Of a stretch of 64,000 bases of DNA, positions 24,401 through 55,602 are shown in pieces. Every line of letters starts with the position of its first letter. Position 1 is the first letter of the stretch. Made by a program: the position numbers and the translations under genes. Below the pieces are notes generated by a model. It had not been told where the DNA came from. It did no database searches and worked only from the letters and a program-made list of their open reading frames with translations. The stretch is from Desulfosporosinus sp. (GTDB lineage Bacteria > Bacillota > Desulfitobacteriia > Desulfitobacteriales > Desulfitobacteriaceae): the NCBI GenBank assembly GCA_020692355.1, contig JAIMKP010000003.1, positions 1 to 64,000 of the forward strand, read 5' to 3'.

Positions 24401-25500
24401 AGCTTCGCCCAATTCAACGCCAGAGAAGTTACGCGACGCACCCTCTCCGGAATCGGCCGGAAAATATTTCTCTCCCCAAACCTGTCGCTTACATGATCGA
24501 GATAAGCAATCGGGGCGGTGATGATTTGCCCATCAAATTCCGGATAATACACACTGGTCACGAGGGACATCCCATCCAACCCATTCACAGAGCCTTCCCA
24601 GCGCTCCAAGGACTGCAGCATGGGCATCGCCTGCAGCACCGGCACCGCCAAAGGTGCAAAGACGCTCTCCTCCACGACATGCCTGCCATCGCCCGGACGG
24701 CTGACAATACTCTGCGCAAAACCCATGGTATTGATCAGCGCGTCCACGCGCGCTTCACGCGCATCCAGGAAAAAATGCTTCAGCGTCCAGCTCAGTCCCT
24801 TGCTGCCGAGGAGCGGATTGGCTGTGGACTCCGTGAAAACCGGCAGAACCTCCCCACCCAGAGCTTGAATTTCCCGAATCAAAGCCTCGATGTGCTCAAG
24901 ATTTTGCTCCTGCAGGTAATGGGAATGAAAGAGGATGCCAATAACGGGCTTGCCCGAACGTTTTAGGTTTGCCAGATAGGACGTCTCATCCTCGATGCGT
25001 TCCTCCGGCAAGCCTGGAGCATAGATCCCTTCCCAGACACGCCCCTGCACCGGATGATAATTATAGCGTTTTCGACCCAGCGTAGTCGCCAGATAGAGCA
25101 AGAGATTCCGGTGATTTTCCAAACCGCTAAGGAGAAAATAGCTGAGAATTTCCTGGTGCTGTCCTGCGGTTAAACCGGATTTTTTCTTGAGTTCCTCGTT
25201 CTCTTCCTCCACTCCGGAGTGTACAAAGAATTTCAGGGTTTCTCTTTCCTGGACGATTTCTACGATCGATTCCAATTTTTTGAAAAAAGTCAGCCCGCTA
25301 TGCGCCACCAGAAACACGAGATCCGCTTCGGCCAAAACCCTTTGGCAACTCAGCCACTCGTTTGGATCTCCATCGATCTGCGACGTTTTCCAGAAGTCCA
25401 GGGAGATTTCTCCGGGATAATCCTGACAAACCGCGTGGTACGCCTCTTTCATGGAGTAAGACGAATCGTGGTCGGAAAACAGGCAGACCATCTTAAACAT
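21493..25500 (-). CDS. cobN: CobN/BchH-type large chelatase subunit (system 1)
   Basis: The tetrapyrrole-binding subunit of a three-part chelatase, 1335 aa. The central HVGTHGSLEWLPGKEVGLSQ with the following DLPHLYPYIIDV is the family core, and FVPPGGSGSPTRGR plus LPTGRNFYALDP mark the C-terminal half. Start ATG 25500 follows GGAGGA by 7 nt and overlaps the end of a 59-aa ORF. CobN of the aerobic B12 pathway inserts cobalt with CobST; this organism's context is anaerobic and it sits with ChlI/ChlD motors and a BtuFCD importer under a cobalamin riboswitch, so a cobalt or corrinoid-linked role is likely but the true substrate is unknown. Confidence 0.9.
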   Translation of the reverse strand: MFKMVCLFSDHDSSYSMKEAYHAVCQDYPGEISLDFWKTSQIDGDPNEWLSCQRVLAEADLVFLVAHSGLTFFKKLESIVEIVQERETLKFFVHSGVEEENEELKKKSGLTAGQHQEILSYFLLSGLENHRNLLLYLATTLGRKRYNYHPVQGRVWEGIYAPGLPEERIEDETSYLANLKRSGKPVIGILFHSHYLQEQNLEHIEALIREIQALGGEVLPVFTESTANPLLGSKGLSWTLKHFFLDAREARVDALINTMGFAQSIVSRPGDGRHVVEESVFAPLAVPVLQAMPMLQSLERWEGSVNGLDGMSLVTSVYYPEFDGQIITAPIAYLDHVSDRFGERNIFRPIPERVRRVTSLALNWAKLRRTPPAAKRVAILFHNMPPRNDRIGCAFGLDTPASVWYMVQLLKEEGLKLDYDFQDGDEIIQRIIQAVSNDTRWLMPEEALKKSVARISGETFQLWNGELSPRIQEKLEKDWGKAPGQFMVYEDQLPVPGILNGHLFIGLQPARGYEEQAEAVYHSTDIAPPHAYLAYYRWLREVFGAQVIVHVGTHGSLEWLPGKEVGLSQDCFPDAAIADLPHLYPYIIDVTGEGIQVKRRSYGVLLDHLIPSLTRSGVYEELAVIDELIQDYEQAERQDPAKLPYLEERLWELVQSQHLDEDLQQNFQGSELQRQSEVALDEADRYKLVQTKLARNERPSRDFPAFVKRLHVWLEEIKSSLIKDGLHVFGQVPEGDRFIHLMQALLRLPNGEVPSLPQAVAAALGFDHHELYAKLTERAANGQSHLRLLDLIDEKGEELLWALHEAEYHPERIKGIIQEGIPVREASNMPDPLDFLSLSDPLEFPELPAKPDPQELLQQAESMAQMERQELAQPQEPLHLKPLEQCLTYAATMVKKRLEGTKDELRYFREGIRGRFVPPGGSGSPTRGRVSILPTGRNFYALDPATIPSRASWEVGCLLGQRLLERHLAEEGKYPENSVMVVYAGETMKTGGDDLAEALYLMGLKPKWLGDTERVIGLEVIPLGELGRPRLDVTLRITGLFRDTFPNLIERFDEAVQLAAGLDEPGEENHIRKHILEEIRQLEEKGHSRAQAEEEAGMRVFGCPPGTYGGGVDVLINSRNWQSQEDLGNVYTLWSGYAYGRKLHGRQVMEVFARRLAEAEATIKNESSQEIDMLEDDCYYIYHGGLIAGITTHSGKAPRSYSGDASDPERPKVRDIREETARIMRARIFNPKWFAGLQQHGYKGAQEIAAMVDIAFGWDATAQVLQNWMYDQMAAFYLLNEERREWIREVNPWALHQISERLLEAAQRGMWEAGPEALQALRRIYLESEGDMEGA

Positions 25501-25672
25501 GACGCATTCCTCCTGCCACGGCCCCGCTAAACAGAGCGACAAATTCCGCCGCCAAAGAGCGGATTAGATCCGAAGTGCTCAAGACCTTCCGAGAACCCTG
25601 AAATACCGCCACCAAACTACGGTTATAACGGTGTACCACATCGCCATTGGCAAACGTATAGATCCGCATCAT
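25493..25672 (-). CDS. 59-aa ORF, possible CbiZ remnant
   Basis: Starts at ATG ATG 5 nt after GAGGGG and ends 8 nt inside cobN, so it is placed as a translated, coupled gene. The sequence MMRIYTFANGDVVHRYNRSL continues with VAVFQGSRKVLSTSDL. From memory the N terminus of adenosylcobinamide amidohydrolase (CbiZ) has a similar RSLVV...RVLSTS block, and CbiZ genes often follow btuD. If so, only about 35 of more than 200 residues remain and the tail is unrelated. Otherwise it is an unknown small protein whose translation feeds cobN. Confidence 0.6.
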   Translation of the reverse strand: MMRIYTFANGDVVHRYNRSLVAVFQGSRKVLSTSDLIRSLAAEFVALFSGAVAGGMRHV

Positions 25673-27102: not shown

Positions 27103-28182
27103 TTATAAAGAAACCCCCTCTTTTTTCGCCCGATACAATAGGAAAAGAAAATACGGTGCCCCCAAGAGAGATGTGACGATCCCCACCTCGATCTCTAAAG
27201 GCATCACCACGATGCGGGCTACAAGATCGCAGATGACAAGGAATAACGCTCCGGCCAAGGCACTGGCCGGCAGGAGAACCCGGTGATCCGGACCCACCAA
27301 AAGCCGCATCACATGGGGCACGATCAGGCCGACAAACGCAATATGCCCACTGACGCTCACCGCCAGAGCCGTAGTAACTGAGGCAAAAAAGAGCAGCCAC
27401 TTTCTCGTCTTGGCTGGATTCAAGCCGACCGACTGTGCCTCCTCCTCTCCCAAAAGGAGGACATTCAAATCCCGGGCAAACAACATGAGCATCAGCATAC
27501 TGATGAGCACAGGTAGAGCCACCAGGCGCACATGCTCCCAGCGGCGTCCGCTTAAACTGCCCACAGACCAGAACAGATACTCTCTCACTTGGTACTCATT
27601 GAGAAAGGTCAGGGTTAAAGAGGTCAGGGCTCCGATAAAGGTGCTCACCGCAATGCCAGCCAAGACGAGCGTCAGCACCGAGAACTTGCCACCCCTGGCG
27701 GACAGCCCATAGATGACGAGAGCGGCCATAAAAGCACCCGCCGTCGCCAAAAGCGGCATGAAATAAAGACTTTTGGCAGTCAGCCCCCAGGCGATCGCCA
27801 GCACCGCACCCAGACTAGCCCCGCTTGATATGCCGATGATCCCCGGATCAGCCAGCGGATTGCGAAACATCCCCTGCATCACGGCCCCCGCCAAGGCCAA
27901 GGCTGCTCCAACCAGCACCGCCACTACGACCCGCGGAAAACGAACGAAAAAGATGATCGCCTCCTGACTGGCAGAAAAGGGAGCCTGTTCAAACTTTACG
28001 ACGCCCAAGTCTTTCAGGATGATCTCCACAGTCTTGTTTAGGGGCACGGTTACGGCACCCAGAGCCGTCGCCACCACAACCACCAGCAAAAGGCCCAGCA
28101 CAAGCAACACGATCACTTTCTTCTCGTGGCTATGGGCCTTAATATTCTGCATGACCCTCCTTTTATCTCCTTCCGCTAACAT
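27103..28182 (-). CDS. btuC: BtuC-type FecCD permease
   Basis: A 359-aa integral membrane subunit of a corrinoid/tetrapyrrole importer with nine to ten hydrophobic segments. Family motifs are ALAGAVMQGMFRNPLADP, IGISSGASLGAVLA and the coupling-helix region SVSGHIAFVGLIVPHVMRLL. The start ATG 28182 shares its A with the stop of btuF (TGATG), so translation is coupled; an alternative ATG at 28152 behind AGGAGG is possible. Confidence 0.9.
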   Translation of the reverse strand: MLAEGDKRRVMQNIKAHSHEKKVIVLLVLGLLLVVVVATALGAVTVPLNKTVEIILKDLGVVKFEQAPFSASQEAIIFFVRFPRVVVAVLVGAALALAGAVMQGMFRNPLADPGIIGISSGASLGAVLAIAWGLTAKSLYFMPLLATAGAFMAALVIYGLSARGGKFSVLTLVLAGIAVSTFIGALTSLTLTFLNEYQVREYLFWSVGSLSGRRWEHVRLVALPVLISMLMLMLFARDLNVLLLGEEEAQSVGLNPAKTRKWLLFFASVTTALAVSVSGHIAFVGLIVPHVMRLLVGPDHRVLLPASALAGALFLVICDLVARIVVMPLEIEVGIVTSLLGAPYFLFLLYRAKKEGVSL

Positions 28183-29189
28183 CACTTAAACAGGTCGGGG
28201 TAAGCTGCCTTGGCCAGGTCTTCTACGCCCAATGCCATATATTGGGACACACTGATCACATGCTTGTCCGGCAACATGTAGACGCGATGGTTCTTGATCG
28301 CCTTGACCGTAGCCAGGCTTTGGTCCTTTTTTAAATCCTCCGCCAGATTTGCCGGATTCTGTTTCTTATCATAGGACCAGGAAGGCAAAATAATCACATC
28401 CGGATTCAGCTCCACGATCTTCTCCTTGGAAATCTTCGGGTATCCCGTCAGTCCGGCCTGAGCTGCCACATTGATCAGCCCTGCCCGTTGAGCCATATCA
28501 TCAAAACCGGTTCCCTTGCCCTTCGTGGAACCAAAAGAGTTATAGTCCAGCACCGTTAGCTTGGTTTCGGCTTTGATCCCTTTGACTTTATCCGCAACCC
28601 TCTGGAGTGTTTTATCCATTTCCGCAACCATAGTTTGTCCTTTCGTCGGCTCACCAACCAGGCGCGCGACCTCCTGGATGACCTTCTTCTGTTCATCCAG
28701 GTTTGTTGCTGTGCCATATAGATAGACCGGAATCTTGGCATCCAGGAGCTGCTGGATCTGCTCCTTTTTCATCCAACTGGCCGCAAAAACCAAATCAGGC
28801 TTGAGTGAAATAATGGTTTCAATATTGTTTTCCACTTTTCGAAAGGTCTTGGCCTCAGTGGCTACATTGGATATCCCTTCGTCCTCAGCAATCTTGCCTG
28901 AAAGCGCTTGGATCCGGCTGTGTTCCACTAAAGACAAAAGCATTTCATCCGTACCCAACGTCAGTGAGACGATCCGCTCCGGTTTTTGTGCCAGGGTCAG
29001 CTCATTTCCGCTGAAATCCTTAACCGTCAGGGGATACTGAACGTTCTCCCCTTTAGCACCAGTTTGAGCCGTTGGCGTTTTCGCACCCTCTGTCGAAGCG
29101 GTGGAGCTTGAACCACATCCCGCCAGAATTCCCAGCATCATCATTGCCACTACAAGCCAAGCAAGGCTTTTGCCTATCCGTTGTCTCAT
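28182..29189 (-). CDS. btuF: BtuF-type corrinoid-binding lipoprotein
   Basis: A 335-aa extracellular substrate-binding lipoprotein. The signal peptide ends in the lipobox LAGCG, so the mature protein is anchored at Cys; a Ser/Thr-rich linker follows, then a Peripla_BP_2 domain with PERIVSLTLGTDEMLLSL and NPDVIILPSWSY. Start ATG 29189 follows AGAAAGAGGG; the longer reading runs back into the riboswitch. It is the first gene after the cobalamin riboswitch and terminator, which supports a corrinoid (or corrinoid precursor) as ligand. Confidence 0.88.
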   Translation of the reverse strand: MRQRIGKSLAWLVVAMMMLGILAGCGSSSTASTEGAKTPTAQTGAKGENVQYPLTVKDFSGNELTLAQKPERIVSLTLGTDEMLLSLVEHSRIQALSGKIAEDEGISNVATEAKTFRKVENNIETIISLKPDLVFAASWMKKEQIQQLLDAKIPVYLYGTATNLDEQKKVIQEVARLVGEPTKGQTMVAEMDKTLQRVADKVKGIKAETKLTVLDYNSFGSTKGKGTGFDDMAQRAGLINVAAQAGLTGYPKISKEKIVELNPDVIILPSWSYDKKQNPANLAEDLKKDQSLATVKAIKNHRVYMLPDKHVISVSQYMALGVEDLAKAAYPDLFK

Positions 29190-29244
29190 CAAACATCCCT
29201 CTTTCTCAAATGATTGAATCGTTACTCCTCTTTTGGATTGCCGC

Positions 29245-29281
29245 CCAAAACAAAAACCCTCTACAGAAATCCTGTAAAGGG
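29245..29281 (-). terminator. Intrinsic terminator of the btuF cobalamin riboswitch
   Basis: On the minus strand CCCTTTACAG-GATTT-CTGTAGAGGG is followed by TTTTTGTTTT. It stands between the aptamer and btuF and is almost identical to the hairpin after the second riboswitch, so it is the expression platform: with cobalamin bound, transcription ends here. Confidence 0.85.
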
Positions 29282-29284
29282 TAT

Positions 29285-29545
29285 AATTCGTCCGGCTAGC
29301 CAGATAACATTTCCTGGTTGCAAGGCATCGCAACATTCCCCCTATCCTGCGTAGGTTCCTGTGTGGCTTCGAAGCGAGCAGGTCTCCTGGCTTAAGTTCA
29401 TCGCCGCCTTACGTCTTCCCGGTTTCCCAGTGACATTTTGTAAGGCCGCTCACTATCACAGTGGCGGGACCGCGTCAGATTCGCTGACTTCCCTTTTCAA
29501 TACTTCTCCTTGAGAAAGTATACTCGCTTACGCATATGAAGTTTT
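29285..29545 (-). ncRNA. Cobalamin riboswitch upstream of the btuF-chlD operon
   Basis: The minus strand contains the conserved core GCGGTCCCGCCACTGTGA, then CACTGGGAAACCGGGAAG and the B12 box GCCAGGAGACCTGC, all in the right order and spacing for a class-I cobalamin riboswitch. A variable 3' part leads into the terminator. It predicts repression of the whole importer-chelatase operon when cobalamin is plentiful. Confidence 0.93.
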
Positions 29546-38746: not shown

Positions 38747-39000
38747 TTGCTCTTCCGGCTAGCCGGATAATAGCTTCCGGTTGCAGGGCATCGCAACATT
38801 CCCCCTATCCTCCGTAGGTTCCTGTGTAGCTTCGAAGCGAGCAGGTCTCCTGGCTTAAGTTCATCGCCGCCTCACGTCTTCCCGGTTTCCCAGTGACATT
38901 TTGTAAGGCCGCTCACTATCACAGTGGCGGGACCGCGTCAGATTTGCTGACTTCCCTTTTCAATACTTTTCCGAAGGAAAAGTATACTCGCTCTCCCATA
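38747..39000 (-). ncRNA. Second cobalamin riboswitch
   Basis: Carries the same core as the btuF riboswitch: GCGGTCCCGCCACTGTGA, CACTGGGAAACCGGGAAG and GCCAGGAGACCTGC, with nearly identical peripheral parts. It controls the 92-aa ORF and the NrdG fragment. High identity to the copy 9.4 kb away indicates a recent duplication. Confidence 0.93.
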
Positions 39001-39049
39001 TGAAGTTTTCTTATGCACCATGAAAGTTATACTTTCTGAATAGCCAAGT

Positions 39050-39166: not shown

Positions 39167-40180
39167 CTATCCCTTCTTTTTACGCCAAATACGCTGGAGC
39201 GGCCAGGCGATGAGCGCGATCAGAATCAGCCCGAGAAGCGCTGACAGTAGATAGCCCAATGCCTGCTGCCAGAAACTCTGATCAAATCCTGCAATTCCAT
39301 AATCGGGCAGAAGAACATGCTTCCAAAACTCTCCCAACTTACCCAATCCCTGAGGGACAAATCCCAGCTGAGACTGCAGATCTTCTCCGCCCCATTCACC
39401 CCAGGCCGTACCGGAAGCCAAAAGTCCCAGAGGACTCAGCACAACCAAAACCGCCAGCCAGGGAAGGAAACGTTTCCAGCTCAAAGGAGCCTTATCCCGT
39501 GCCGATTGATCATCCTCCAGAAAAGCTGGATTGGACTGCTGCAGATAACGCAAAACGAGCACTGTAACTACGCCCTCAATGGGTCCGGCCACCGTCAAAT
39601 GCGCAAAGAGCATCGCGGGAACCGCCTGACTGAGCCCATATGGGCAATACAAGGGCACCCCGGTCACCGAATGAAAGAGTAATGGCTGCAAACCGAATTC
39701 GATTCCCGCCATCACGGCAGCCGCAGTTATTCCGATATATCCGGCTATCGCAGCCGCGATCCAGCGACGCTTGGATCCGGCCGGACTTTTTGTGGCAACA
39801 AGCTTATATACAAAGTAGCTGATAAAGGGAAGAACGATACCCATATTAAAAATATTGGCTCCCAGCGCCAGAATCCCGCCGTCGCCAAAGAACACCGCTT
39901 GAATGATCAACGCAATTGAGATGCTGAGCATCGCCGCCCAAGGACCCAGTAGAATGGCCAGCAGTGACCCTCCTACCGCATGCGCTGTCGTACCGTCTGG
40001 CACGGGCACATTAAACATCATGATGGTAAAGGAAAATGCCGCCCCAATCGCTAACAGCGGGACATCCTTGGCACGTACGCTTTGGGAAGCCTTACGCGCA
40101 CCCACAGAAAGACCCAGCGCACTTACGAGCCCAAGAACCGCATCCGTTTGTGGACTTAAATACCCGTCCGGTATATGCAT
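39167..40180 (-). CDS. cbiM: CbiM energy-coupling cobalt (or nickel) importer subunit
   Basis: The metal-binding S component of an ECF Co/Ni importer. MHIPDGYLSP at the very N terminus supplies the Met-His amine ligands for the metal; PDGTTAHAVGGSLLAILLGPW and GANIFNMG are family blocks. At 337 aa it is longer than minimal CbiM because a CbiN/PDGLE-like C-terminal part (SPLGLLASGTAWGEWG plus a final membrane helix) is fused. ATG 40180 follows AAAGGAG; the upstream in-frame extension belongs to a decayed methyltransferase. CbiQ and CbiO genes are not present nearby. Confidence 0.9.
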   Translation of the reverse strand: MHIPDGYLSPQTDAVLGLVSALGLSVGARKASQSVRAKDVPLLAIGAAFSFTIMMFNVPVPDGTTAHAVGGSLLAILLGPWAAMLSISIALIIQAVFFGDGGILALGANIFNMGIVLPFISYFVYKLVATKSPAGSKRRWIAAAIAGYIGITAAAVMAGIEFGLQPLLFHSVTGVPLYCPYGLSQAVPAMLFAHLTVAGPIEGVVTVLVLRYLQQSNPAFLEDDQSARDKAPLSWKRFLPWLAVLVVLSPLGLLASGTAWGEWGGEDLQSQLGFVPQGLGKLGEFWKHVLLPDYGIAGFDQSFWQQALGYLLSALLGLILIALIAWPLQRIWRKKKG

Positions 40181-40191
40181 AGCAAACAACT

Positions 40192-40604
40192 CCTTTTTAA
40201 ACTTTATAATTTTCTTCCCGTCAAAAGAATATTGAGACGTATCTTCAATGACAACATCCGTAAAACCTACTTCTGAAAAAATAGCGAGCATCGTGCTTCC
40301 CTCCGGTAACAAATCGTTACCCACGGCACCTCCGAGAGAGACATGAATTAGGCCAATGATACTTTTTCTTCGCTTCTGCCAGCATCTGAGGAGCAAAATC
40401 CAGTGTCACTACGGCTCCTGATGCACCTACAGCTTCGACCAACATTGGAATGAGTACTCCTGTCCCAGTCCCGACATCAAGCACTTTACTACCCCTGGAC
40501 AGCGCCAGTTTCCGCACAATATCGCGCAACCGATCGATGACCTCATTCGTGATAAGTCCATCTCATTGAGCAGCCTTTTCATCGAAATAGTCTCGTAACT
40601 GCAT
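40192..40604 (-). pseudogene. Broken class I SAM-dependent methyltransferase
   Basis: From ATG 40604 the frame reads MQLRDYFDEKAAQ, an in-frame TGA, then DGLITNEVIDRLRDIVRKL and SKVLDVGTGTGVLIPML, the SAM-binding glycine loop, and VVTLDFAPQML. After an internal deletion and frame shift the typical C-terminal EVGFTDVVIEDTSQYSF appears, whose frame runs without a stop into cbiM. At least three lesions make it non-functional. Confidence 0.8.
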
Positions 40605-45385: not shown

Positions 45386-48300
45386 TCAGCTTCCCAATTT
45401 CGCTTTAATCTCCTGCATCCTGGCTCCCCAATCAGCTACTTCCTCGGTAGTGAGAATGTCGATCGCGCCGCCCTGGAACTCGCCTTTGACCTCACCCATT
45501 TTTTCCTCCAGCCAGCCTTCAATTTCCAGGTAGGTATCCTTCAAACCCTCCAGAACTTCCGGGTCAGCCTGCCACAGACCGCGCTGATTGGCTTCCATGA
45601 GCCGACGGGCAATTTCTTCTAAGGCCCAGGGGTTATGCTCTTCAAAGAACTGGCGGTTTTCCTCATCCATGATAAAGGTTCTGGTAATGTCGTCAAAGAC
45701 CCAGTCATCCACTTCCCGAGTGGTAGCCTCCCAGCCGTAGACCCGGCCGACCCGCTTAGAAATGTCCCCGGCACCCTTGTAACCGTGCCTTTTCTGTCCC
45801 TCGATCCACTTGGGATTCAAAAGCTTCGTCCGTACCACGCGACGCACTTCGTCAGCCAGTGTGCGTACTTCCACATGCTCCGGCTCTCTGGTGTCGCCGT
45901 AATAGGTCTTTACTTCCTGACCAGAAGCCACCCGCGCAGCAGCAGTCATGCCGCCATGGGTTCCGAAATAACCACAGCAGCCGAAGAGATCGGACTCGTC
46001 GGTGATCACCTTGTTGTAGGTGACATCCACCGTTTTCAGATTGGCCTGGAGCTGGCGGAAGGCTTCCTGACCGAAGACATTTTTGCCGTAAGCGTAGCCA
46101 TTCCAGTAAACGAAGATATCGGCCAGATCCTTTTCTTCTTTCCAGGCGGAGGCGTAAACAGCCAGATTCACGCCGGCCTGGTAAGTTCCGGGCTTGGAAG
46201 CAAATATACGCAGGGTAGCATCCCGCCAGGCCTGTGCGTCGTTCTGTCCGTCCAGTTGGGCCAGGGTGTGCTTGCGGACGTAGTTTTGTTCGACTGGCTC
46301 GTCCAAGGCAGCCACGATCTGGACAGCCTCGTCCAGGAGTTCCACGCAGTTGGGGAAATTATCCCGGGTGATGCCGGAAACCCGCACGGTCAGGTCAATG
46401 CGGGGTCGCCCTAAGTCTTCCGGCGGGATCACCTCCACGCCAGCCACCCGCCCGTTGGGCAGCCAAGTCGGTCTTACGCCGAGCAGGTAAAACATCTGGC
46501 CCAGTCCTTCTCCGTCCGCCCACATAATGTCGTTACTCATCCAGTACAGGGCCACGTTTTCCGGATAACGCCCTTCTTCATCCAAATGCTTGGTCAGGAC
46601 TTTTTCAGCCAGGCGCCTACCCACCTCCCAGGCCGCTCGGGTGGGCACCCGGTGGGGATCCAAGGAATAGAAATTTCGACCGGTGGGCAACACGTCATCC
46701 CGGCCCCTGGTGATTAGCCCGGAGGGTCCGGCGGGAATATATTCTCCGGCAAAGCCAGAGAGAAGGGATTCGATTTCCTGGGAAGCCTCAATACGGGCAT
46801 CAAGATCCAGCACCCTGGGCAGTACGGCGTTCAGCGTTGGCAAAGCTTCAGCACCACAAAACGTATCTCCCAAGACCTCCCGAACCAGGCCGATGTCCAC
46901 CTCCTGTCCTTTCAGGAAACGGGCGATGAAGGCCTTGGACGCTGTATTGATGTCCTCCAAAAGCGCACCGTAAGCTTTGCCGTGGCGAGCGGAAATGCGC
47001 TCCTGGCCGGCCAGCAATTCGGCCAAATCCAAATCCATGAGAGCAGCCACGGCGCGGCGCAGGGATGTTTCCTTCCCGGCATCGAAGCGCAAAATCGAGT
47101 TAATGAATTCCACCCGGCGTTCGCCTTTTGGCAAATCCCCAAAGATATGCTGACCGTCCTGGATCTGGGTGTTGCGGATGACGGAAAGCACAGCATGGGC
47201 TTTTTCGGCAATGGCAACAAAGAACTCATGACCGTCCTCCACATTGATCTGTTTATCCAGGTTGGTTTTTTGGATTTCTTCAATAATCAAGTGCTCCAGC
47301 ATATGCGCCCGGCCCGGGTCGGTCACTTTGGCCTTTTCGTATTCCTCCAGGTAGCGATCCAGTTCGGCCAACTCGTCGTAAAGTCCGCCTCCGATCATGA
47401 CCGTCTGCATGTGGTCCACCAGGGTGGCATAGCTTCTTCTCTTGGCTATGGTTCCTTCCGGCGGGTTGTCAGCGTTGTAGATATAAAGGTGCGGCATGGC
47501 GCCAATGGCCAAATCCGGGTAACAGTCGCCGGAGAGGCCCACTCCCTTGCCAGGCAGAAACTCCAGATTACCGTGAGTGCCGACATGTACCACTGCATCC
47601 ACACCGAAGTCCCGCTCCAGAAAGCGGTAGGTAGCTAGGTACTGGTGGGGCGGCGGGATGTCTGGGTCGTGCAGAATTTTGCAGACCTGTCCGTCGCACC
47701 GCGCGCCGGCGCAGCCCCGCTTCGGCTGCACGCAGACCACGGCATTCCCATACTGTACACCGGTGATGATAATCTTTCCCTCATGCACCATCGCCGCGGG
47801 AACACCATTCATCGCCTCCCCCGGCGGGATGCCCCAGGCACCGGTGATACGCTCCTTAACCTGGGCAGATAACGTATCAAACCACTCCCGGTACTCCTCC
47901 ACCGGCATAAGTTTTAAAGCCCCGCCTTTGCCGATGATCTCGTCCGTCGTGGTCCAACGGAATTCGGAAATGGCCTTCCGGTTCATGATGGTGTCAATGA
48001 GTTCCTTGCCACTTCCCGGTACCACCACACTGTAACCCGCCTCCCGCATGCGGCGCAATATCTGAGCTACGCTCTCCAGCGTATCCAGATTGGCCGCACC
48101 GCCTACGGTGGCCTCCACCGAAGCGCAGGGATCATTGTTGAGAACAAAGGCCACCCTCCTCTCGGCTGCGGGCTTTTGAGCTAACTCGATCCACTTCGTC
48201 ACCCGTTTTACCAAGTGTTGGCAGCGTTCTTCCACAGGCACACGAACTTCCAGATCGCCTTCCCGTTTGACCCCGGCAATGAAGATGGGCTCGATAACCC

Positions 48301-49318
48301 CTTCAAACTCCGGCATGGCAACAGACCAGGCAATATCCTGGCTCAGACCCTGCGGATCTTCAGCCCATTCCTCCACCGTGCGGTAAAAGGAGGTTACCGG
48401 CTGAAAGACAGGAACGTTGAGCTTTTGTAAGAGCGTTACGCCGGAAGAAGCCACATTCTCTTTTAAAAAGTCGTCGCTTCTGGTCCGAGCTTCAAGAAAG
48501 AAGGAAATCAGCTTGACCAAAGCCTTGATGCGCGATCGGCCATCACGATCAAAGAAAAATTGCCGCACCACCTCCCCGGAACCTTTCGTACCCAGTTCGG
48601 CGTCTTTTAACGAATAGCAGAAGGCGGGAATAACATTGAAGCCCTTCGCTTCCAGCAGGCGAATCAGGGCATTTTCTACCGCCAGATTGTCGTTAACCCA
48701 ATTGCTGCGGGCAAAGAGCAGTCCCACGACCGGAACATTTGGAGTAAAAGAAGTAGCTGTTTGGGAGGCGTCCAATAACTCATCCGGCTGCAGATCGTTT
48801 TTAAGATCGCACCGATACGAACCATACCACTTAAGGTAACTTTCCCCCGATGTAAAATACTCCGGCGCCGCCGGGTGATAAATCCCCTCCCAAGGTAATA
48901 TCACTGGTTCCGCGTATTCCAACTGCTCGCCCAGTACCTTCGCAGCCAGGTAACGGAGCATCCGGGCAAAGTTTTCCTCACCGCCTTGTACAACGTAGCT
49001 TTGGCAGCGAGCGATTATTTCCAGACCCACGGTAGATAGAGCCCACAGAGCGGGGTCATGGGCAACGCAGACCACAGGCTTGCCCAGTTTTTTGACTTTC
49101 TCTTCCAGCTCATCCCATATTGTCTCGGCGGTAGAGCGGTAAAAGAAGATCAAATCTGCCTGCTCCATATCGGCCAGCGCCGCGTCCAAGTTCTCTTTCT
49201 CTTCGTCCAGGAAACGGGCCGAGTAAACATTTACCGCAAGGACATCCTTCACCAATTCCTTGGCCCGCCGCATGGGGGTGGTATGGCTATGCCAGAGTAT
49301 AGTAGTAATTTTTTTCAC
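45386..49318 (-). CDS. cobN: CobN/BchH-type large chelatase subunit (system 2)
   Basis: A 1310-aa paralogue of the first CobN. Core VVHVGTHGNLEFLPGKGVGL and PHLYIYNADNPPEGTIAKRR; C-terminal half with FAGEYIPAGPSGLITRGRDD and VLPTGRNFYSLDPHRVP. Unlike system 1 it has a Cys-rich insertion VQPKRGCAGARCDGQVCK just before ILHDPDIPPPHQY, giving a C-x4-C-x4-C pattern that could hold a cluster or metal. The last residues include EEVADWGARMQEIKAKLGS. GTG 49318 lies 7 nt after GGAGGG. It follows chlI by 20 bp and precedes the importer genes. Confidence 0.9.
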   Translation of the reverse strand: MKKITTILWHSHTTPMRRAKELVKDVLAVNVYSARFLDEEKENLDAALADMEQADLIFFYRSTAETIWDELEEKVKKLGKPVVCVAHDPALWALSTVGLEIIARCQSYVVQGGEENFARMLRYLAAKVLGEQLEYAEPVILPWEGIYHPAAPEYFTSGESYLKWYGSYRCDLKNDLQPDELLDASQTATSFTPNVPVVGLLFARSNWVNDNLAVENALIRLLEAKGFNVIPAFCYSLKDAELGTKGSGEVVRQFFFDRDGRSRIKALVKLISFFLEARTRSDDFLKENVASSGVTLLQKLNVPVFQPVTSFYRTVEEWAEDPQGLSQDIAWSVAMPEFEGVIEPIFIAGVKREGDLEVRVPVEERCQHLVKRVTKWIELAQKPAAERRVAFVLNNDPCASVEATVGGAANLDTLESVAQILRRMREAGYSVVVPGSGKELIDTIMNRKAISEFRWTTTDEIIGKGGALKLMPVEEYREWFDTLSAQVKERITGAWGIPPGEAMNGVPAAMVHEGKIIITGVQYGNAVVCVQPKRGCAGARCDGQVCKILHDPDIPPPHQYLATYRFLERDFGVDAVVHVGTHGNLEFLPGKGVGLSGDCYPDLAIGAMPHLYIYNADNPPEGTIAKRRSYATLVDHMQTVMIGGGLYDELAELDRYLEEYEKAKVTDPGRAHMLEHLIIEEIQKTNLDKQINVEDGHEFFVAIAEKAHAVLSVIRNTQIQDGQHIFGDLPKGERRVEFINSILRFDAGKETSLRRAVAALMDLDLAELLAGQERISARHGKAYGALLEDINTASKAFIARFLKGQEVDIGLVREVLGDTFCGAEALPTLNAVLPRVLDLDARIEASQEIESLLSGFAGEYIPAGPSGLITRGRDDVLPTGRNFYSLDPHRVPTRAAWEVGRRLAEKVLTKHLDEEGRYPENVALYWMSNDIMWADGEGLGQMFYLLGVRPTWLPNGRVAGVEVIPPEDLGRPRIDLTVRVSGITRDNFPNCVELLDEAVQIVAALDEPVEQNYVRKHTLAQLDGQNDAQAWRDATLRIFASKPGTYQAGVNLAVYASAWKEEKDLADIFVYWNGYAYGKNVFGQEAFRQLQANLKTVDVTYNKVITDESDLFGCCGYFGTHGGMTAAARVASGQEVKTYYGDTREPEHVEVRTLADEVRRVVRTKLLNPKWIEGQKRHGYKGAGDISKRVGRVYGWEATTREVDDWVFDDITRTFIMDEENRQFFEEHNPWALEEIARRLMEANQRGLWQADPEVLEGLKDTYLEIEGWLEEKMGEVKGEFQGGAIDILTTEEVADWGARMQEIKAKLGS

Positions 49319-49338
49319 TTTTATCCCTCCAGAACTTC

Positions 49339-50433
49339 TCACAGGTGAGCATGGGCGTGAGTATGGGAATGAACATCAGTATGGGTATGGGTATGCGAAT
49401 GGCTATGTTGCTGCCCTCCGAGCACCTCCTGCAGCTTCTTTCTGTCCATGGACAGATCCTGAAAAGGCTTGCGGCGCATGCGGTGGAGCAAAGTCAAGTC
49501 TACCGACTGGCGTATGTCCTCCTCCGTTACTTCTTCCTTACCGTTGAATGCCGCCACGGTCTTGGCCGCTTTCATCATAATTAAATCAGCCCGATGCCCG
49601 TCTACTTCCATCTCGATAGCAATACTGGCAATTAAAAAGAGCATCTCGTCTGAAATCTGCACCTTGGGAAGTAGTGCTTTCGCTGCGCTTATTTGCTGAC
49701 GAAGCTTATCCTGTTCTGTTTCCCAAAGTGCTGCCAAACTTTCTGGATCTTCTTCAAAAAGAGCCCGCCTTTTGACCACCTCTACCCGCAACTCCGGGTC
49801 AAGAATTCCAGAAATATTTACAGAAAAACCAAAACGGTCCAGGAGCTGGGGCCGCAATTCTCCTTCCTCAGGATTCATGGTTCCCACCAGAATGAAATTA
49901 GCCGGATGGGTAAAAGATACCCCTTCACGCTCTACAGTATTAACCCCCATGGCTGCCGAATCTAAAAGCACATCGACAATATGGTCATCCAGGAGATTAA
50001 CCTCATCCACATAAAGGATACCCCTGTTGGCCTGGGCCAGAACCCCAGGTTCAAACCGTTTTTCTCCTTTTTTAATGGCCTGTTCGAGATCAAGAGTTCC
50101 CACGACCCGATCTTCGGTGGCTGAGACAGGCAAATCCACCACCCGCATCTTCCGCCGCGTCCGGGGCAGTTTCTCCCCTTTAGCCAGCCGTTCCCGGCAA
50201 TTCAGGCACATCGTCGTTATATCATCAGGGTCACACCCGTAAAAACAATCTGCCACAACTTCAATCTCCGGAAGCAGCTCTGCCAAAGCCCTGACCGCAG
50301 TCGATTTAGCGGTTCCCTTTTCTCCGCGGATCAGTATCCCGGAAAGTTTAGGATTAATCGCATTAAGAAGCAGCCCCCTTTTCATTTCTTCCTGTCCTAC
50401 GATTGCCGCAAAAGGATATGTTTTTCTTTTCAT
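49339..50433 (-). CDS. chlI: ChlI/BchI-like AAA+ subunit with a His-rich tail (system 2)
   Basis: A 364-aa AAA+ motor subunit: Walker [16 protein letters not shown], a four-cysteine knuckle (DCFYGCDPDD, then MCLNCRERL), [16 protein letters not shown], Walker [14 protein letters not shown] and [19 protein letters not shown]. The last 23 residues alternate His with Ser/Thr/Ala (QQHSHSHTHTHTDVHSHTHA), eleven histidines in all, as in nickel- and cobalt-handling proteins such as HypB or SlyD. The first-system ChlI lacks it. Start ATG follows AGGAAGGGG. It lies 20 bp before cobN. Confidence 0.92.
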   Translation of the reverse strand: MKRKTYPFAAIVGQEEMKRGLLLNAINPKLSGILIRGEKGTAKSTAVRALAELLPEIEVVADCFYGCDPDDITTMCLNCRERLAKGEKLPRTRRKMRVVDLPVSATEDRVVGTLDLEQAIKKGEKRFEPGVLAQANRGILYVDEVNLLDDHIVDVLLDSAAMGVNTVEREGVSFTHPANFILVGTMNPEEGELRPQLLDRFGFSVNISGILDPELRVEVVKRRALFEEDPESLAALWETEQDKLRQQISAAKALLPKVQISDEMLFLIASIAIEMEVDGHRADLIMMKAAKTVAAFNGKEEVTEEDIRQSVDLTLLHRMRRKPFQDLSMDRKKLQEVLGGQQHSHSHTHTHTDVHSHTHAHAHL

Positions 50434-50556: not shown

Positions 50557-52629
50557 TTAGGCCAGCAACCCACTGACTCTATCATCACGGTTCCGCCTCA
50601 CGGCCTGAACCAGAGTATCTGCTTTCAACTCATCGATTTTATAGTACTCAGCTTCAAGCGTATTAGCTAACTCCCGGGCCAACCCAAAGGTAAGCAAACC
50701 CTCCTTTTCCACATCAATAACAATAGATTTGATCCGAGCTTCTTCCATGATGATTTCACCTATTCTCCGTGCTTCTTTTGCAGGTTTTTCAGAACCGATA
50801 CTCACATTCCCTTTTCCATCAGAAATAATAATTAATAATGGTGAGACATTGGGGTCTTTTAGAAGCTGAGCTTTAGCTACCTCATAAGCTTTGGCTAATC
50901 CAGCAGATAATGGCGTTTTCCCACCGGTGGGCAGTTCTTCGAGAAGTTTGTGGGCCATTTCCACACTGTTAGTAGGCGGAAGAAGCAGTTCAGCTGTATT
51001 TCCTTTAAAGGCGATCATTCCTATCCGATCCCGTTTTTGGTAAGCATCAAGCAGTAACGATAAGATTGCGCCCTTCGTTGCGCTCATACGTTGCTGGGCA
51101 CCCATTGACCCACTGGCATCAACAACAAAAAGCAAAAAGTTTCCGATGCGCTTTTCGCGTACTTTTTCCCGAATATCACTAGTCTCAATGGTAATCGCTA
51201 CTTTTTCATGCTTACGATATATCTGATATAGAGCTGCAACCCGCAGAGTAGCATCGAAGGCTAGGTCGTTATTTTTTCTCTGCATGGTGCTCCGTATATA
51301 GCGCCCTACCTTAGAGGCCGTATTTGTCCGCGAGCGCCGACCAGAGCCTTTCCGTAAAATCCTGTCTCGGTTATGCGTTATACGTTTAACCTGAAACGGT
51401 TGTCCAACCGCAAAAACGGTTTCCCCATTCTCGCTCTGTTCATCCTTGCCTCCCTCTTGTTCTTCCAGTTCAGAGCCTGCCTGTGCGGAAGAGGGCTGCT
51501 CCGATTCAGATTCGGCCTGAGATTCTTCTTTTGAATCCTCTTTTTCTTCTTCCTCCGGAGTTTCTGTTTTTTCCGGTTCTTCTTCTGGAGATTCAGGCTC
51601 TTCCGGCGGTGGCGGAGGTGCTTGCCGCACCCTGTGAAATAAGACTAGATCCGCGGCTTCATAAATATCCTCTTCCACTACCTCTGTCCGTCCGTGCCAG
51701 GACGCAATCGTCCGGGCGCCTGCCTCCATGATAATATCGGCACGGTGACCGGCCACAAAAGCTTCTAAACTAAGCTTAGCAATTAAAGCAAGCAGTTCTG
51801 GAGAGACATAAACCCTTGGAAGAAGTTGACGGGCAGCGGTTATTCTATCTCGTAAAACCTGTTCTTCCCCAGCCCACTGGTTAATAAAGCCTAAGGGGTC
51901 GGCATCAAAAGCTTCCCGCCGTTTGACAATCTCCACCCGCTGTCCGGGATCTTTAACTCCTTCCACTTCTACACAGAGCCCGAAACGATCCATCAATTGC
52001 GGCCGCAAATCCCCCTCTTCAGGGTTCATGGTTCCCACGAGGATAAACTCTGCCGGATGAATGTAGGAAATGCTTTCCCTCTCTACCACATTCAACCCTG
52101 TAGCCGCTGCATCCAGTAGTACGTCCACAATATGGTCGTCAAGTAGATTAACTTCATCTACGTAAATAATCCTTCGGTTGGCCTTAGCCAGGATTCCCGG
52201 TTCGAACCGCCGTATCCCGTATTTGATAGCGTGTTCGAAATCTAGATTTCCCACTACCCGGTCTTCCGTAGCTGATATCGGCAGATCAATAACTGATACC
52301 CGCTGTGAAATGGTTGCCAGTTTTTCTCCGGCTTCCAGTCGAATACGACATGAGTCACAAAGCTGAGCACTGTTTTTAAGATCACAATAATATGGACATC
52401 CTTTAACCCCCTCTATTTCGGGCAATAAAGTTGCCAGAGCCCGCACCGCAGTTGATTTGGCCGTTCCTTTTTCACCACGGATCAGGATGCCTCCTAATCG
52501 TAGGTTAATGGCATTTAATATCAGGCCCTTTTTCATTTTTTCTTGTCCGATAATCGCTGAAAAAGGATACACAGCCCGGCGAATTCCCCCCATTTTCGCA
52601 CCCCAATCTGCAACTTCATTTTGTGCCAT
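50557..52629 (-). CDS. chlD: ChlD-like AAA+ and VWA subunit (system 2)
   Basis: A 690-aa motor subunit that, unlike many ChlD proteins, keeps a complete AAA+ site: Walker [16 protein letters not shown], the four-cysteine knuckle (GCPYYCDLKN, LCDSCRIRL) and [14 protein letters not shown] Glu/Pro/Ser-rich acidic linker (about residues 350-425) leads to a VWA domain with MIDAS FVVDASGSMGAQ and ISDGKGNVS. ATG 52629 is chosen because AGGAAACT precedes it and because upstream sequence is a terminator hairpin. The first residues, NEVADWGAKM, resemble the C terminus of the system-2 CobN. First gene of its operon. Confidence 0.9.
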   Translation of the reverse strand: MAQNEVADWGAKMGGIRRAVYPFSAIIGQEKMKKGLILNAINLRLGGILIRGEKGTAKSTAVRALATLLPEIEGVKGCPYYCDLKNSAQLCDSCRIRLEAGEKLATISQRVSVIDLPISATEDRVVGNLDFEHAIKYGIRRFEPGILAKANRRIIYVDEVNLLDDHIVDVLLDAAATGLNVVERESISYIHPAEFILVGTMNPEEGDLRPQLMDRFGLCVEVEGVKDPGQRVEIVKRREAFDADPLGFINQWAGEEQVLRDRITAARQLLPRVYVSPELLALIAKLSLEAFVAGHRADIIMEAGARTIASWHGRTEVVEEDIYEAADLVLFHRVRQAPPPPPEEPESPEEEPEKTETPEEEEKEDSKEESQAESESEQPSSAQAGSELEEQEGGKDEQSENGETVFAVGQPFQVKRITHNRDRILRKGSGRRSRTNTASKVGRYIRSTMQRKNNDLAFDATLRVAALYQIYRKHEKVAITIETSDIREKVREKRIGNFLLFVVDASGSMGAQQRMSATKGAILSLLLDAYQKRDRIGMIAFKGNTAELLLPPTNSVEMAHKLLEELPTGGKTPLSAGLAKAYEVAKAQLLKDPNVSPLLIIISDGKGNVSIGSEKPAKEARRIGEIIMEEARIKSIVIDVEKEGLLTFGLARELANTLEAEYYKIDELKADTLVQAVRRNRDDRVSGLLA

Positions 52630-52636
52630 AGTTTCC

Positions 52637-53275
52637 TGTACTCGTAAAAAAGTAGCCGCCTGCCGCATATCGGCCTCGGGTAGCACAGTTGAGGCAGACG
52701 GCAAAGAGGAGGTAATTTATCCAATTGTGAGACTCCCACTTCTACAAGTGGGAGTGGTACCTCGTACTTTGCTTCGGTGGGGGTAGACTCCCCCACCGAA
52801 GTCTCGATGTTCAACTTTAGTTGAACGAGTTCACTATTAGATCCATGCCGAATCTAATAAACATCAGAAAAGAAATCCTTGAACAGACAATCCTTATAGA
52901 AAAACCATGGTGTCATCCAGCGCCATCTTGCCGCTGAAAGACCTCCATGGTCTCATCCGTTATTAACCTATTGACCTGTTTGATAGGAATTTTATCTATT
53001 GACTCAGATTATCGGGCCCATAATAATACCATTAGCCCAGGGTGGAGTCACCACCGTCTCGCGTGCTGAGCGCACCTGATCCAAAAAATATACACTGTCA
53101 CACTCTCTCAAACCAAAGAATATTGCGGCTTACCACAAGCCCCGCTCCACAGAAAAAAGGCCATGGAGCAACCGTATCCGGTCAAGACCTCCATGGCCTT
53201 TTCAATTTCAGTATTTACTTCTTGTTATTTATATTCTCCATTCAATTTAGATTTCCTGCTAGTATCGGAAAATTT
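52637..53275 (-). promoter_or_regulatory. Multi-hairpin terminator leader L2 with an inserted mobile element
   Basis: Same order as L1 on the minus strand: conserved A+T block, H1 (53200-53158; GGCCATGGAG with CTCCATGGCC, then TTTTTT), a spacer starting TGTGGAGCGGGGCTTG, H2 (52953-52903), the short GGCATG-loop hairpin, and H3 (52702-52655; GCCGTCTGCC/GGCAGGCGGC, then TACTTTTTT). H3 ends about 20 nt before the chlD start codon. Element copy C sits between the GGCATG hairpin and H3. H1 and H2 keep pairing despite base changes against L1. 53276-53412 has one more hairpin (53306-53339) and no gene. Confidence 0.65.
52721..52834 (-). mobile_element. IS200/IS605-like non-coding element, copy C (114 bp)
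   Basis: On its own strand GTGAACTCGTTC ... CTCACAATTGG, with left hairpin GTTCAACT-AA-AGTTGAAC, a middle hairpin GGTGGGGGAGTCTACCCCCACC-like and the right hairpin ACTCCCACTT-GTAG-AAGTGGGAGT. It lacks the interior of copies A and B. The L1 leader carries the uninterrupted target (GGTAATCTAT joined to TATTAGATT), proving both ends. Confidence 0.85.
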
Positions 53276-53412: not shown

Positions 53413-54153
53413 TCAGGCCAATAAGGCTGCTCCCAAGGCAGCCGTAAGCTCCGGCTGAGGCGGGATCAGAATTTCGACCTTTAACTCTTCTTTGAGATAG
53501 CGGGCCAACTGAGCATAATGTGCTCCTCCACCGGAAAGGATCAACTGCTGTGGTTGCCCCAGTGTTTCCACAAAACGAGCCAAACGTTTAGCCGTACTTT
53601 TAAAAAGCCCGGCTACAACTTCTTCTTTCGGATTGCCTTTGGCCAAGAGGCTGATCACTTCCGACTCCGCAAATACGGTACACATGGAATTGATCGTTAA
53701 CGGTTCTGCCTCCTGGGCCTGAACAACTTCTTGCGGACTTAAGTCCATCCCTTTCAGGATAACATCCAGAAAGCGTCCCGTTCCTGCTGCACACTTGTCA
53801 TTCATGACAAACCGGACAACTTTGCCCTCTGCATTCTTACAGATGACTTTGGCGTCCTGGCCCCCGACATCCAAAATATACACCGCCTCCGGATAATAGT
53901 GGTGACAGCCCCGTGCCTGGCAGGTGATCTCCGTCACCACTCGCCCCTCAGGAAAGCTCACCCGCCCGTACCCGGTCACCACAAGTTCTTCAGGCTTTCC
54001 GCCCTCAGCCTGCAGATAATCTTCCAAAAGCAGTTTCCCTGCTTTCACAGAATCAAAACGGGAAGGCAGGGCTTGGCGATAGATCATCTCCAGGCCCTCC
54101 AGGACAACCAGTTTGGCATTGACAGAGCCTAAATCCAGACCGGCTCTCCTCAC
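53413..54153 (-). CDS. Activase of the double-cubane reductase (BcrA/HgdC-type ATPase)
   Basis: ASKHA-fold ATPase of 246 aa. AGLDLGSVNAKLVVLEG gives the phosphate loop; cluster ligand Cys residues are in MNDKCAAGTGRFLDVIL and INSMCTVFAESEVISLL; GGGAHYAQLARYL and the ending PELTAALGAALLA are typical. GTG 54153 overlaps the stop of the upstream reductase gene (GTGA), so the two are translated together. It should pass low-potential electrons to that reductase at the cost of ATP. It is a paralogue of the activase at 4.3-5.1 kb. Confidence 0.9.
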   Translation of the reverse strand: MRRAGLDLGSVNAKLVVLEGLEMIYRQALPSRFDSVKAGKLLLEDYLQAEGGKPEELVVTGYGRVSFPEGRVVTEITCQARGCHHYYPEAVYILDVGGQDAKVICKNAEGKVVRFVMNDKCAAGTGRFLDVILKGMDLSPQEVVQAQEAEPLTINSMCTVFAESEVISLLAKGNPKEEVVAGLFKSTAKRLARFVETLGQPQQLILSGGGAHYAQLARYLKEELKVEILIPPQPELTAALGAALLA

Positions 54154-55418
54154 GACCTGATCATCTCCAGGAGGGCTTCGATCCGGGTGAGAAGCTGGCC
54201 CTGATCTTCTTCCGAAAAATCCGTCTCCAGGTGTAAATACGGAATGCCCCGTTCTTCCATCTCTCGGCCAATAAAGTAACTCTCGACGCCATACGTTTGA
54301 CAAAACTGCAGATTAAACTCCAGCACAGCGTCGGCCTGCAAGTCCTTGGCCATTCTGGTGATATCCTCTACTCGTCCATGATTAGGCGTGAAACAAGCGC
54401 AGTTGACATGCATGGGGCGCCGGGCTATGTTCTGCAGCATCTCCTCTACGGTCGCCGCTTCTTCCGTCAAATCCTTGTAGTACCGTTCTCCCGTACAGGT
54501 CTCTTCTCCGACCACAATCCCCCCAGCTTGTTCTACCAGAGCATGGATCTTCCAGGCTGGTAGCGGCTGTGGTGTACCCGTGATCAGAATCCTCGGTGCC
54601 TCGGCCGATACGACACCGATTCCCTGACATACGCGCTCTTCCAATTCATCGCAGAGTACATTCACTTTCTCGGCAAAGCGTTCTGGATCATCAAAGAAGG
54701 CCAGTTGATTAATGAGCAAAACATCCAGTCCATGGATCGGAGCGGGTCTGTGCCGACGGAGTTCCGCCAAGCGTTTTAAAGCTTGACGCCGTTCGTTAAC
54801 CTTCTTGACCCCCGACTTCAAGTTTTCTGCCGTTAAGCTTACCCCGGTTTCCCGTTCCACTAAGCGCGCAAACTCCCGCACCTCGTCTTCCCAAAAGCGG
54901 TTGTCCCTCTCCCCTTTGCGCTGTGGAAGTTCCATGACATAGGTTGGAATATGCTCGCTTAGGATCTCCCAAGCTTTCTTTTTCCCGTCACAGGTTGTCT
55001 CCCCAATGACCCAGTCTGAAACCTGAAAATAAGGACAGATGCGATCCAGTTTAAAGCCCATACTAGACTTGACCAGTGGGCAGGTGTTACGCGGCAGAAC
55101 CTTTTCCCCCGAAGGCACCGTATACTGGGCTCCGGCACACAGACCGATGCTCGCACTCCCCGTGGCCAAGACAATTTCATCCGGAACATAGACACAAAAG
55201 GTGGCAAACACCTTTCCCCCACCCAACTTCAGGTTATAGAGTTCATGTATCCGTGCTCCATGTACGTCGCCAACCACCTGATCAAAGTAGTCCATTCCAG
55301 CTGGACGACCCGGTCGATTCAAGAAGAGTTCCGTGTAAACTCCGGGAAGCGGCGCCAAAAAATCATCGTGTTTTTCCAGATCCATATTGAGTATTGTCCA
55401 GAGCTCGCGGTTATCCAT
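54150..55418 (-). CDS. Double-cubane-cluster protein (anaerobic reductase, HgdB family)
   Basis: A 422-aa single-chain member of the 2-hydroxyacyl-CoA dehydratase family whose order of motifs matches the double-cubane-cluster proteins that reduce small molecules such as acetylene or azide with an activase. Cysteines at 75, 94 (IGLCAGAQ), 113 (NTCPLVKSS), 128 (RICPYF), 143 (ETTCDGKKK), 308 (EETCTGERYY), 340/342 (NCACF) and 373 (QFCQTYG) provide ligands for an Fe8S9-type cluster. There is no second subunit, and the activase gene overlaps, as in known pairs. Physiological substrate is unknown. The SelC-like tRNA gene lies about 90 bp upstream. Confidence 0.85.
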   Translation of the reverse strand: MDNRELWTILNMDLEKHDDFLAPLPGVYTELFLNRPGRPAGMDYFDQVVGDVHGARIHELYNLKLGGGKVFATFCVYVPDEIVLATGSASIGLCAGAQYTVPSGEKVLPRNTCPLVKSSMGFKLDRICPYFQVSDWVIGETTCDGKKKAWEILSEHIPTYVMELPQRKGERDNRFWEDEVREFARLVERETGVSLTAENLKSGVKKVNERRQALKRLAELRRHRPAPIHGLDVLLINQLAFFDDPERFAEKVNVLCDELEERVCQGIGVVSAEAPRILITGTPQPLPAWKIHALVEQAGGIVVGEETCTGERYYKDLTEEAATVEEMLQNIARRPMHVNCACFTPNHGRVEDITRMAKDLQADAVLEFNLQFCQTYGVESYFIGREMEERGIPYLHLETDFSEEDQGQLLTRIEALLEMIRS

Positions 55419-55507: not shown

Positions 55508-55602
55508 TGGAGGGGGCGGGTGAGAATCGAACTCACTCCCGATTAGGTCATAATCCGGCCAACAGGTTTGCAGCCTGCGGGGAACCCAGCTCCAACGCCC
55601 CC
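55508..55602 (-). tRNA. SelC-like tRNA-Cys (anticodon GCA), 95 nt
   Basis: On the minus strand: acceptor GGGGGCG/CGCCCCC, discriminator T, encoded CCA; D arm GGAG-CTGGG-TTCC; anticodon arm GCAGG-CTGCAAA-CCTGT, giving GCA; a 25-nt variable region with stem GATTA/TAATC extended by CC/GG; T arm GTGAG-TTCGATT-CTCAC with one unpaired C before the acceptor. Long variable arm, short D loop and the TTGGAGCTGG start are those of selenocysteine tRNA, but anticodon GCA and U at the discriminator are the cysteinyl-tRNA synthetase identity elements. A canonical tRNA-Cys has no long arm and is about 74 nt. Confidence 0.85.

Follow-up and report, generated by a model that had tools for sequence, protein, structure and literature searches.

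A Selenocysteine tRNA-Like Cysteine tRNA Gene from Desulfosporosinus and the Selenium Genes Around Its Relatives

The only tRNA gene in the 64-kb stretch of Desulfosporosinus sp. DNA analyzed here (contig JAIMKP010000003.1, hereafter the window) is a real and rare cysteine tRNA of SelC shape, and it belongs to the selC* tRNA-Cys family. It is probably a tRNA that is delivered by SelB and places cysteine (Cys) where selenocysteine (Sec) would otherwise be inserted, as a backup for low selenium.

Structure of the tRNA Gene

ARAGORN recognized the gene as tRNA-Cys(gca) on the minus strand at 55508-55602, 95 nt in length including the encoded CCA. The Rfam model for tRNA-Sec (RF01852) matched 55512-55602 with 48.6 bits, just above the gathering threshold of 47, and an E-value of 1e-6. 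The gene and all of its parts described below are on the minus strand. The acceptor stem has 8 positions, with the 5' strand GGGGGCGU at 55595-55602, supported by the alignment of relatives, and the 3' strand CCGCCCCC at 55512-55519. The first pair is G1-C72, and the stem consists of 7 bp followed by a mismatched 8th pair, in which C 55519 is opposite to U 55595. Among the relatives, the 8th pair is A-U in 81 of 95, and almost all have a full 8-bp acceptor.

The D loop is 3-5 nt. The anticodon GCA is at 55569-55571, which ARAGORN reports at position 32 of the tRNA. The segment 55537-55562 includes the 3' end of the anticodon arm and the long variable arm, and contains the UUGGCC motif, which the alignment shows to be common to the members from Bacillota. 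The T arm, GUGAG-UUCGAUU-CUCAC (55520-55536), has an unbulged stem of 5 bp, and includes the pairs G49-C65 and U50-A64, the positions for the discrimination between SelB and EF-Tu. The discriminator U73 (55511) is followed by the encoded CCA (55508-55510). G1-C72, GCA, U73, and CCA, carried here on a SelC-like body, are the established set used by cysteinyl-tRNA synthetase (CysRS) (PMC7609411).

These results agree with most of the preliminary description of the gene, made from the sequence. The SelC-type body with a long variable arm and a short D loop was recovered with ARAGORN, Rfam, and direct reading; the covariance model placed it within tRNA-Sec; and every element of the proposed CysRS identity set is present. 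The T arm had been described as separated from the acceptor by one unpaired C. The C at 55519 is indeed unpaired, but it is one side of the mismatched 8th acceptor pair rather than a separator. Neither a sigma-70 promoter nor a terminator match was seen around the gene, in a 400-bp stretch that is uninformative in this respect.

Relatives and Covariation

Another genome of the genus carries an identical gene with the same neighbors. These two genomes were the only carriers among 46 in the family sample, and the order added one more genome. In the phylum sample, 24 of 399 genomes carry a selC* gene, the matches being read by eye. A scan of named genomes with a stricter pattern revealed 108 stretches. 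Among the 80 of them that were listed, carriers belong to Bacillota (for example, Carboxydothermus islandicus, Desulforamulus, Desulfofundulus, Desulfoscipio, Ammonifex, and Desulforudis), Nitrospirota, and Actinomycetota, and are mostly anaerobic or subsurface metagenome-assembled genomes (MAGs). After the removal of duplicates, 95 distinct relatives were aligned or compared, so that at least 95 exist.

The relatives share a D stem of 4-5 bp and a 7-pair anticodon stem broken by one base, to which those from Bacillota add UUGGCC. When the structure was imposed on 23 relatives, 93% of the cells were paired, and 20 of the 31 pairs showed changes on both sides. The covariation score in these 23 relatives was 0.441, compared with 0.203 in shuffles (0/500), and was far above the slid controls as well. 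The window gene aligns with the members from Desulforamulus, Desulfofundulus, Carboxydothermus, and others, with shared motifs and a covarying structure. The earlier proposal that it belongs to the group of SelC-like cysteine tRNAs described by Mukai and colleagues is borne out. The identical copy in the second genome, the relatives numbering at least 95, and the covariation indicate that the window gene is more than a chance resemblance.

A T-stem bulge is present in 43 of the 95 relatives and absent in 52, and therefore this character varies within the selC* family; the window gene, with its 8 + 5 positions, is one without a bulge. Independent derivation of selC* from the selC gene of each genome was rejected, because the bodies of selC* and selC differ consistently.

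Several matches were set aside. The pattern matches L085-L088, L092-L094, L098, L099, L101, and L120 were judged from their sequences to be chance, and a long-armed GCA tRNA-like gene lacking the family motifs (L144 in genome G398) was excluded from the set. Extra tRNA-Sec matches in Desulfitobacterium- and Desulfosporosinus-like genomes were considered as UCA members of the family and rejected, since G73 is present in every one of them and marks a second, true tRNA-Sec gene. The genomes G003, G004, G029, G016, and G018 (L071-L075 with L042 and L047) thus carry a pair of true tRNA-Sec(UCA) genes that are unlike in sequence. Two selC* genes of differing sequence were observed in Desulfoscipio geothermicus (G414; L124 and L125), and likewise in Desulforamulus aquiferis (L170 and L215).

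Selenocysteine Machinery of the Host Genome

The host genome was searched family by family. It contains one copy of the ordinary tRNA-Cys(GCA) within a tRNA array, a true tRNA-Sec(UCA) gene, SelA (556 bits), one copy of SelB on a contig other than that of the window tRNA, and one full-length CysRS of 491 aa. The gene for the alpha subunit of formate dehydrogenase is interrupted by a single in-frame TGA, within the usual context DHCART-U-HAPTVAG, and a second molybdopterin oxidoreductase has an in-frame TGA in the context NEHQARI-U-HAPTVAS. From the true selC, SelA, SelB, and the UGA-containing formate dehydrogenases, it follows that the host uses Sec and that it has the window tRNA on top of the two normal ones. 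Of the genes that the preliminary description proposed to look for, selA, selB, and an ordinary tRNA-Cys are present. A second SelB or a CysRS without the anticodon-binding domain beside the window tRNA was not found in the host genome.

Association with SelB and the T-Stem Determinants

All 24 carriers in the phylum sample have SelB, compared with 242 of the 375 non-carriers among the same 399 genomes (Fisher P = 6e-5, uncorrected for kinship), and SelB is single-copy in nearly all of these carriers. SelB was also found in 25 of 26 carriers outside the phylum sample, and a true tRNA-Sec in about 46 of 50 carrier genomes searched. In a MAG from Nitrospirota (L167 in G475), selC*, LysR_Se, the double-cubane-cluster protein (DCCP), and the activase are present, while SelB and the true selC were not found in it; either the bin is incomplete, or the tRNA is used there without SelB.

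In Escherichia coli, three pairs at the junction of the acceptor and T stems direct tRNA-Sec to SelB and keep it from EF-Tu (PMC9976931). Among true selC genes, about 40 of 45 have G49-C65 with U50-A64, as do 95 of 95 selC* genes and only 3 of 28 other host tRNAs. For most loci, the search pattern prescribed A64 and C65; for the 24 carriers of the phylum sample it did not, and the opposing bases G49 and U50 were left free in both searches. The ordinary tRNA-Cys of the host has C-G and C-G at the same pairs. The T-stem positions read by SelB and EF-Tu therefore match tRNA-Sec, not ordinary tRNA-Cys. As a separate observation, the 8th acceptor pair of the true tRNA-Sec is mismatched (G-A, G-G, or C-A) in most of 45 carrier genomes (for example, L001, 1501-1598), including the host, and the selC* gene of the window shares a mismatch at this pair.

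Selenium Genes Around the selC* Loci

A selenium gene lies within 3 kb at 44 of 94 selC* loci, and none at the other 50. A LysR regulator is found near 19 of the 94 loci (all matching NCBIfam LysR_Sec_metab), YedE near 14 (all 13 scanned matching seleno_YedE), YedF near 12 (the member scanned being TIGR03527), DCCP near 9 (all matching double_cubane), SelB near 4, and SelD near 3. In most cases, LysR immediately precedes the tRNA and YedE immediately follows it, on the same strand. With the same profiles, no such gene was found at 41 loci of other tRNAs (0/41), a modest control because these loci overlap in part and come mostly from one genome. LysR_Se, YedE, and YedF are tied to selenium, and the top STRING partner of LysR_Se is a subunit of 2-hydroxyglutaryl-CoA dehydratase (Lin 2015, PMC5322559). 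The dicubane cluster protein has also been provisionally linked to selenium (PMC10418091).

The only selenium-linked neighbor in the window itself is DCCP, a double-cubane-cluster-containing anaerobic reductase (HGD-D) at 54150-55418 on the minus strand, identified with NCBIfam NF040772 (481.5 bits against a cut-off of 350) and Pfam HGD-D. The neighbor had already been described as an Fe8S9 reductase, and the double_cubane match upholds that assignment. Its start codon is 90 bp past the tRNA on the same strand, and no terminator-like site was found between them. The BadF/BadG/BcrA/BcrD-type ATPase, the partner of the DCCP reductase, is listed at 53413-54303 on the minus strand (Pfam PF01869); the domain begins near 54141, and the true start probably lies downstream of the listed TTG. 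Given the ties of DCCP to selenium genes in the literature, the neighbor in the window fits the same gene set.

The location of selC* genes among selenium-handling genes across three bacterial phyla suggests a backup for low selenium. This linkage across phyla was not found in the literature consulted, in which Mukai 2017 and Vargas-Rodriguez 2018 are represented by reviews, and its novelty is not certain. A protein of ~330 aa without an NCBIfam match is directly beside selC* at six loci from Nitrospirota (L151, L174, L175, L182, L193, and L206). By eye, it could be guessed to be transglutaminase-like; a transglutaminase-like enzyme is listed in the YedF column of Table 1 in Lin 2015 (PMC5322559).

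The window has other features related to metals and corrinoids. Two closely alike cobalamin riboswitches on the minus strand, at 29360-29542 and 38823-39006 (110 and 108 bits), are upstream of metal/corrinoid uptake genes, namely a periplasmic binding protein (28182-29336) and a CbiM-like protein (39167-40396). Two large subunits of the CobN/Mg-chelatase type and two ChlI/ChlD-like AAA subunits are encoded near FecCD-type uptake genes, on the minus strand at 21493-25542, 45386-49342, 49339-50433, and 50557-52704. A BchI-like ORF ~3.5 kb upstream of selC* in a distant genome from Bacillota (L123 in G358) closely resembles 49339-50433 of the window, which may be chance.

Second SelB in Nitrospirota

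In three genomes from Nitrospirota, the SelB that comes right after the selC* tRNA is a second copy, and one genome from Nitrospirota has two tRNA-SelB pairs. The loci with a second SelB behind a GCA selC* are L148 and L152 (G466), L156/L334 (G470), and L176/L320 (G476). The GTPase part is retained in these second copies, and so are the conserved DR and R, which are presumably the Sec-binding site. In the last winged helix, ALPFLEYLD is replaced with AITFLEYLD, AIHFLNYLD, or AIHFLEYFD. The possibility that the SelB adjacent to the tRNA lacks the Sec pocket was rejected, because the DR and R positions are kept and only this winged-helix motif differs. A second SelB beside selC* was already known from delta-proteobacteria (PMC7609411).

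A wider reading is tentative and has less than an even chance of being correct. The GCA SelC-like cysteine tRNAs might belong to a selenium-status regulon (LysR_Se, YedE, YedF, DCCP, and SelD) through which selenoproteins are switched between their Sec and Cys forms. The second SelB of some Nitrospirota, altered in its SECIS-binding domain, might have become dedicated to the tRNA, which would make two parallel recoding machines per cell.

Comparison with Known Systems

The GCA member from Desulfotomaculum nigrificans inserts Cys at the UGA codons for Sec, is delivered by SelB, and avoids EF-Tu (Vargas-Rodriguez 2018, as given in a 2024 JBC review, PMC11415595). The window gene is similar to it in the GCA anticodon, the tRNA-Sec-like body, the Cys identity, and a host from Bacillota with the canonical tRNA-Sec and SelB. 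It is distinguished by the unbulged T stem, the mismatched 8th acceptor pair, and the position before DCCP. The 2018 study by Vargas-Rodriguez reportedly named the group tRNA-ReC, demonstrated charging by CysRS, and described programmed codon-anticodon mispairing as well as a selenoprotein safeguard.

In PMC7609411, the selC* tRNA-Cys of Mukai 2017 is described with a modified 8/4 branch and a bulged A51a, the bulge being called dispensable. The window gene shares with that group the identity set and the anaerobic hosts (Firmicutes, Nitrospirae, and others), while its 3' side has 8 + 5 positions and no bulge. In Desulfobacterales, a CysRS*/SelC* pair was posited to serve under selenium scarcity (PMC9437257). 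The UCA selC*/SelB*/CysRS* system there also includes a SelC-like cysteine tRNA, and some GCA genes from Nitrospirota likewise precede a second SelB; however, that tRNA has UCA, A1-U72, and a dedicated CysRS*, whereas the window gene has GCA, G1-C72, and an ordinary CysRS in its genome. Bacterial tRNA-Sec (RF01852) has in common with the window gene the 8 + 5-position acceptor branch, the long variable arm, G49-C65, and U50-A64. The window gene differs from it in having GCA instead of UCA, U73 instead of G73, a D stem of 4-5 bp, and a single linker base after the acceptor.

Function of the tRNA

The ordinary CysRS would load Cys through GCA and U73. The tRNA-Sec-like acceptor branch and T stem would favor SelB over EF-Tu, as was reported for the relative from D. 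nigrificans. Anchored at the SECIS hairpin, SelB would deliver the Cys-tRNA to UGA codons in the mRNAs of selenoproteins, formate dehydrogenase among them, where Cys would enter in place of Sec despite the G34-A mismatch. Cys insertion at UGA despite this mismatch was reportedly observed by Vargas-Rodriguez in 2018. Selenoproteins would thereby be kept full-length when Sec-tRNA is short. The use of the tRNA is probably linked to the selenium supply, since its gene is part of the selenium gene set in the carriers. Against Cys-for-Sec insertion stand the normal pairing of GCA, which reads UGC and UGU so that UGA requires a mismatch, and the U-C mismatch at the 8th acceptor pair of the window gene. 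The 50 of 94 loci without a nearby selenium gene, the window with DCCP as its sole neighbor of this kind, and the MAG G475, which may be incomplete, also weigh against it.

The preliminary description had called the function of such tRNAs largely unknown, which is out of date since UGA recoding with Cys is stated for the D. nigrificans member in PMC11415595. Of the uses it proposed, the replacement of Sec is the best supported.

A regulatory role is unlikely. The tRNA would be part of the leader of selenium genes (DCCP, YedE, YedF, and selB), with its folding, processing, or charging state controlling the downstream message and translation being secondary. Such an arrangement would fit the gene order: of the 14 loci linked to YedE, 12 have it downstream on the same strand, mostly at a distance of 0-60 bp, SelB is downstream at 0-46 bp in 4 of 4, DCCP is downstream at 2-114 bp in 4, and the gap before DCCP in the window has no terminator-like site. 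However, half of the DCCP loci have DCCP on the opposite side and strand, every member retains all the tRNA features that charging and decoding require, through covariation where bases vary, and UGA recoding was reported for a GCA relative in PMC11415595.

It is quite improbable that the gene is a minor cysteine tRNA for ordinary translation with EF-Tu, kept for dosage or stress. GCA, U73, and the encoded CCA would suit that role, but the presence of SelB in 24 of 24 carriers, the tRNA-Sec-like T-stem box that is unlike the host tRNA-Cys, and the selenium neighborhood argue against it, as does the relative reported without EF-Tu interaction (PMC11415595).

Sense-codon tRNA-Sec exists (PMC11415595), and the SelC-like body would agree with a tRNA-Sec whose Cys anticodon directs Sec to selected UGC/UGU codons, like that of Aeromonas salmonicida. 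For the window gene, this is very improbable: U73 replaces G73, the main SerRS element of tRNA-Sec (PMC9976931), the D stem is shorter and the linker base single compared with the co-resident true selC, and a true selC is present in the genome.

A dedicated Cys supply for the neighboring Cys-rich DCCP, as first proposed, accords with the adjacency at 9 of 94 loci but can practically be dismissed, since the regulator (19), YedE (14), and YedF (12) are commoner neighbors, most selenium-linked neighbors are not Cys-rich cluster proteins, and DCCP and its activase are themselves tied to selenium genes (Table 1 of PMC5322559; PMC10418091). DCCP and the tRNA are probably both present because of selenium, neither feeding the other. 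The barely sufficient Rfam score and the patchy distribution, with matches only in the two genomes of this genus among 46 in the family, could hint at a pseudogene, phage relic, or assembly artefact, but the identical gene with the same neighbors in a second genome, the strong covariation, and the operon-like position shared with Carboxydothermus islandicus (L143/L154) leave hardly any room for this.

As far as the literature found indicates, a heterologous test is so far the only setting in which a tRNA of this type was seen to insert Cys at Sec codons. Culturable carriers are found in Desulforamulus, Carboxydothermus, Desulfofundulus, and Desulfoscipio. The linkage with the regulator, the transporter, SelD, the second SelB, and the double-cubane reductase suggests that the signal is the supply of selenium.
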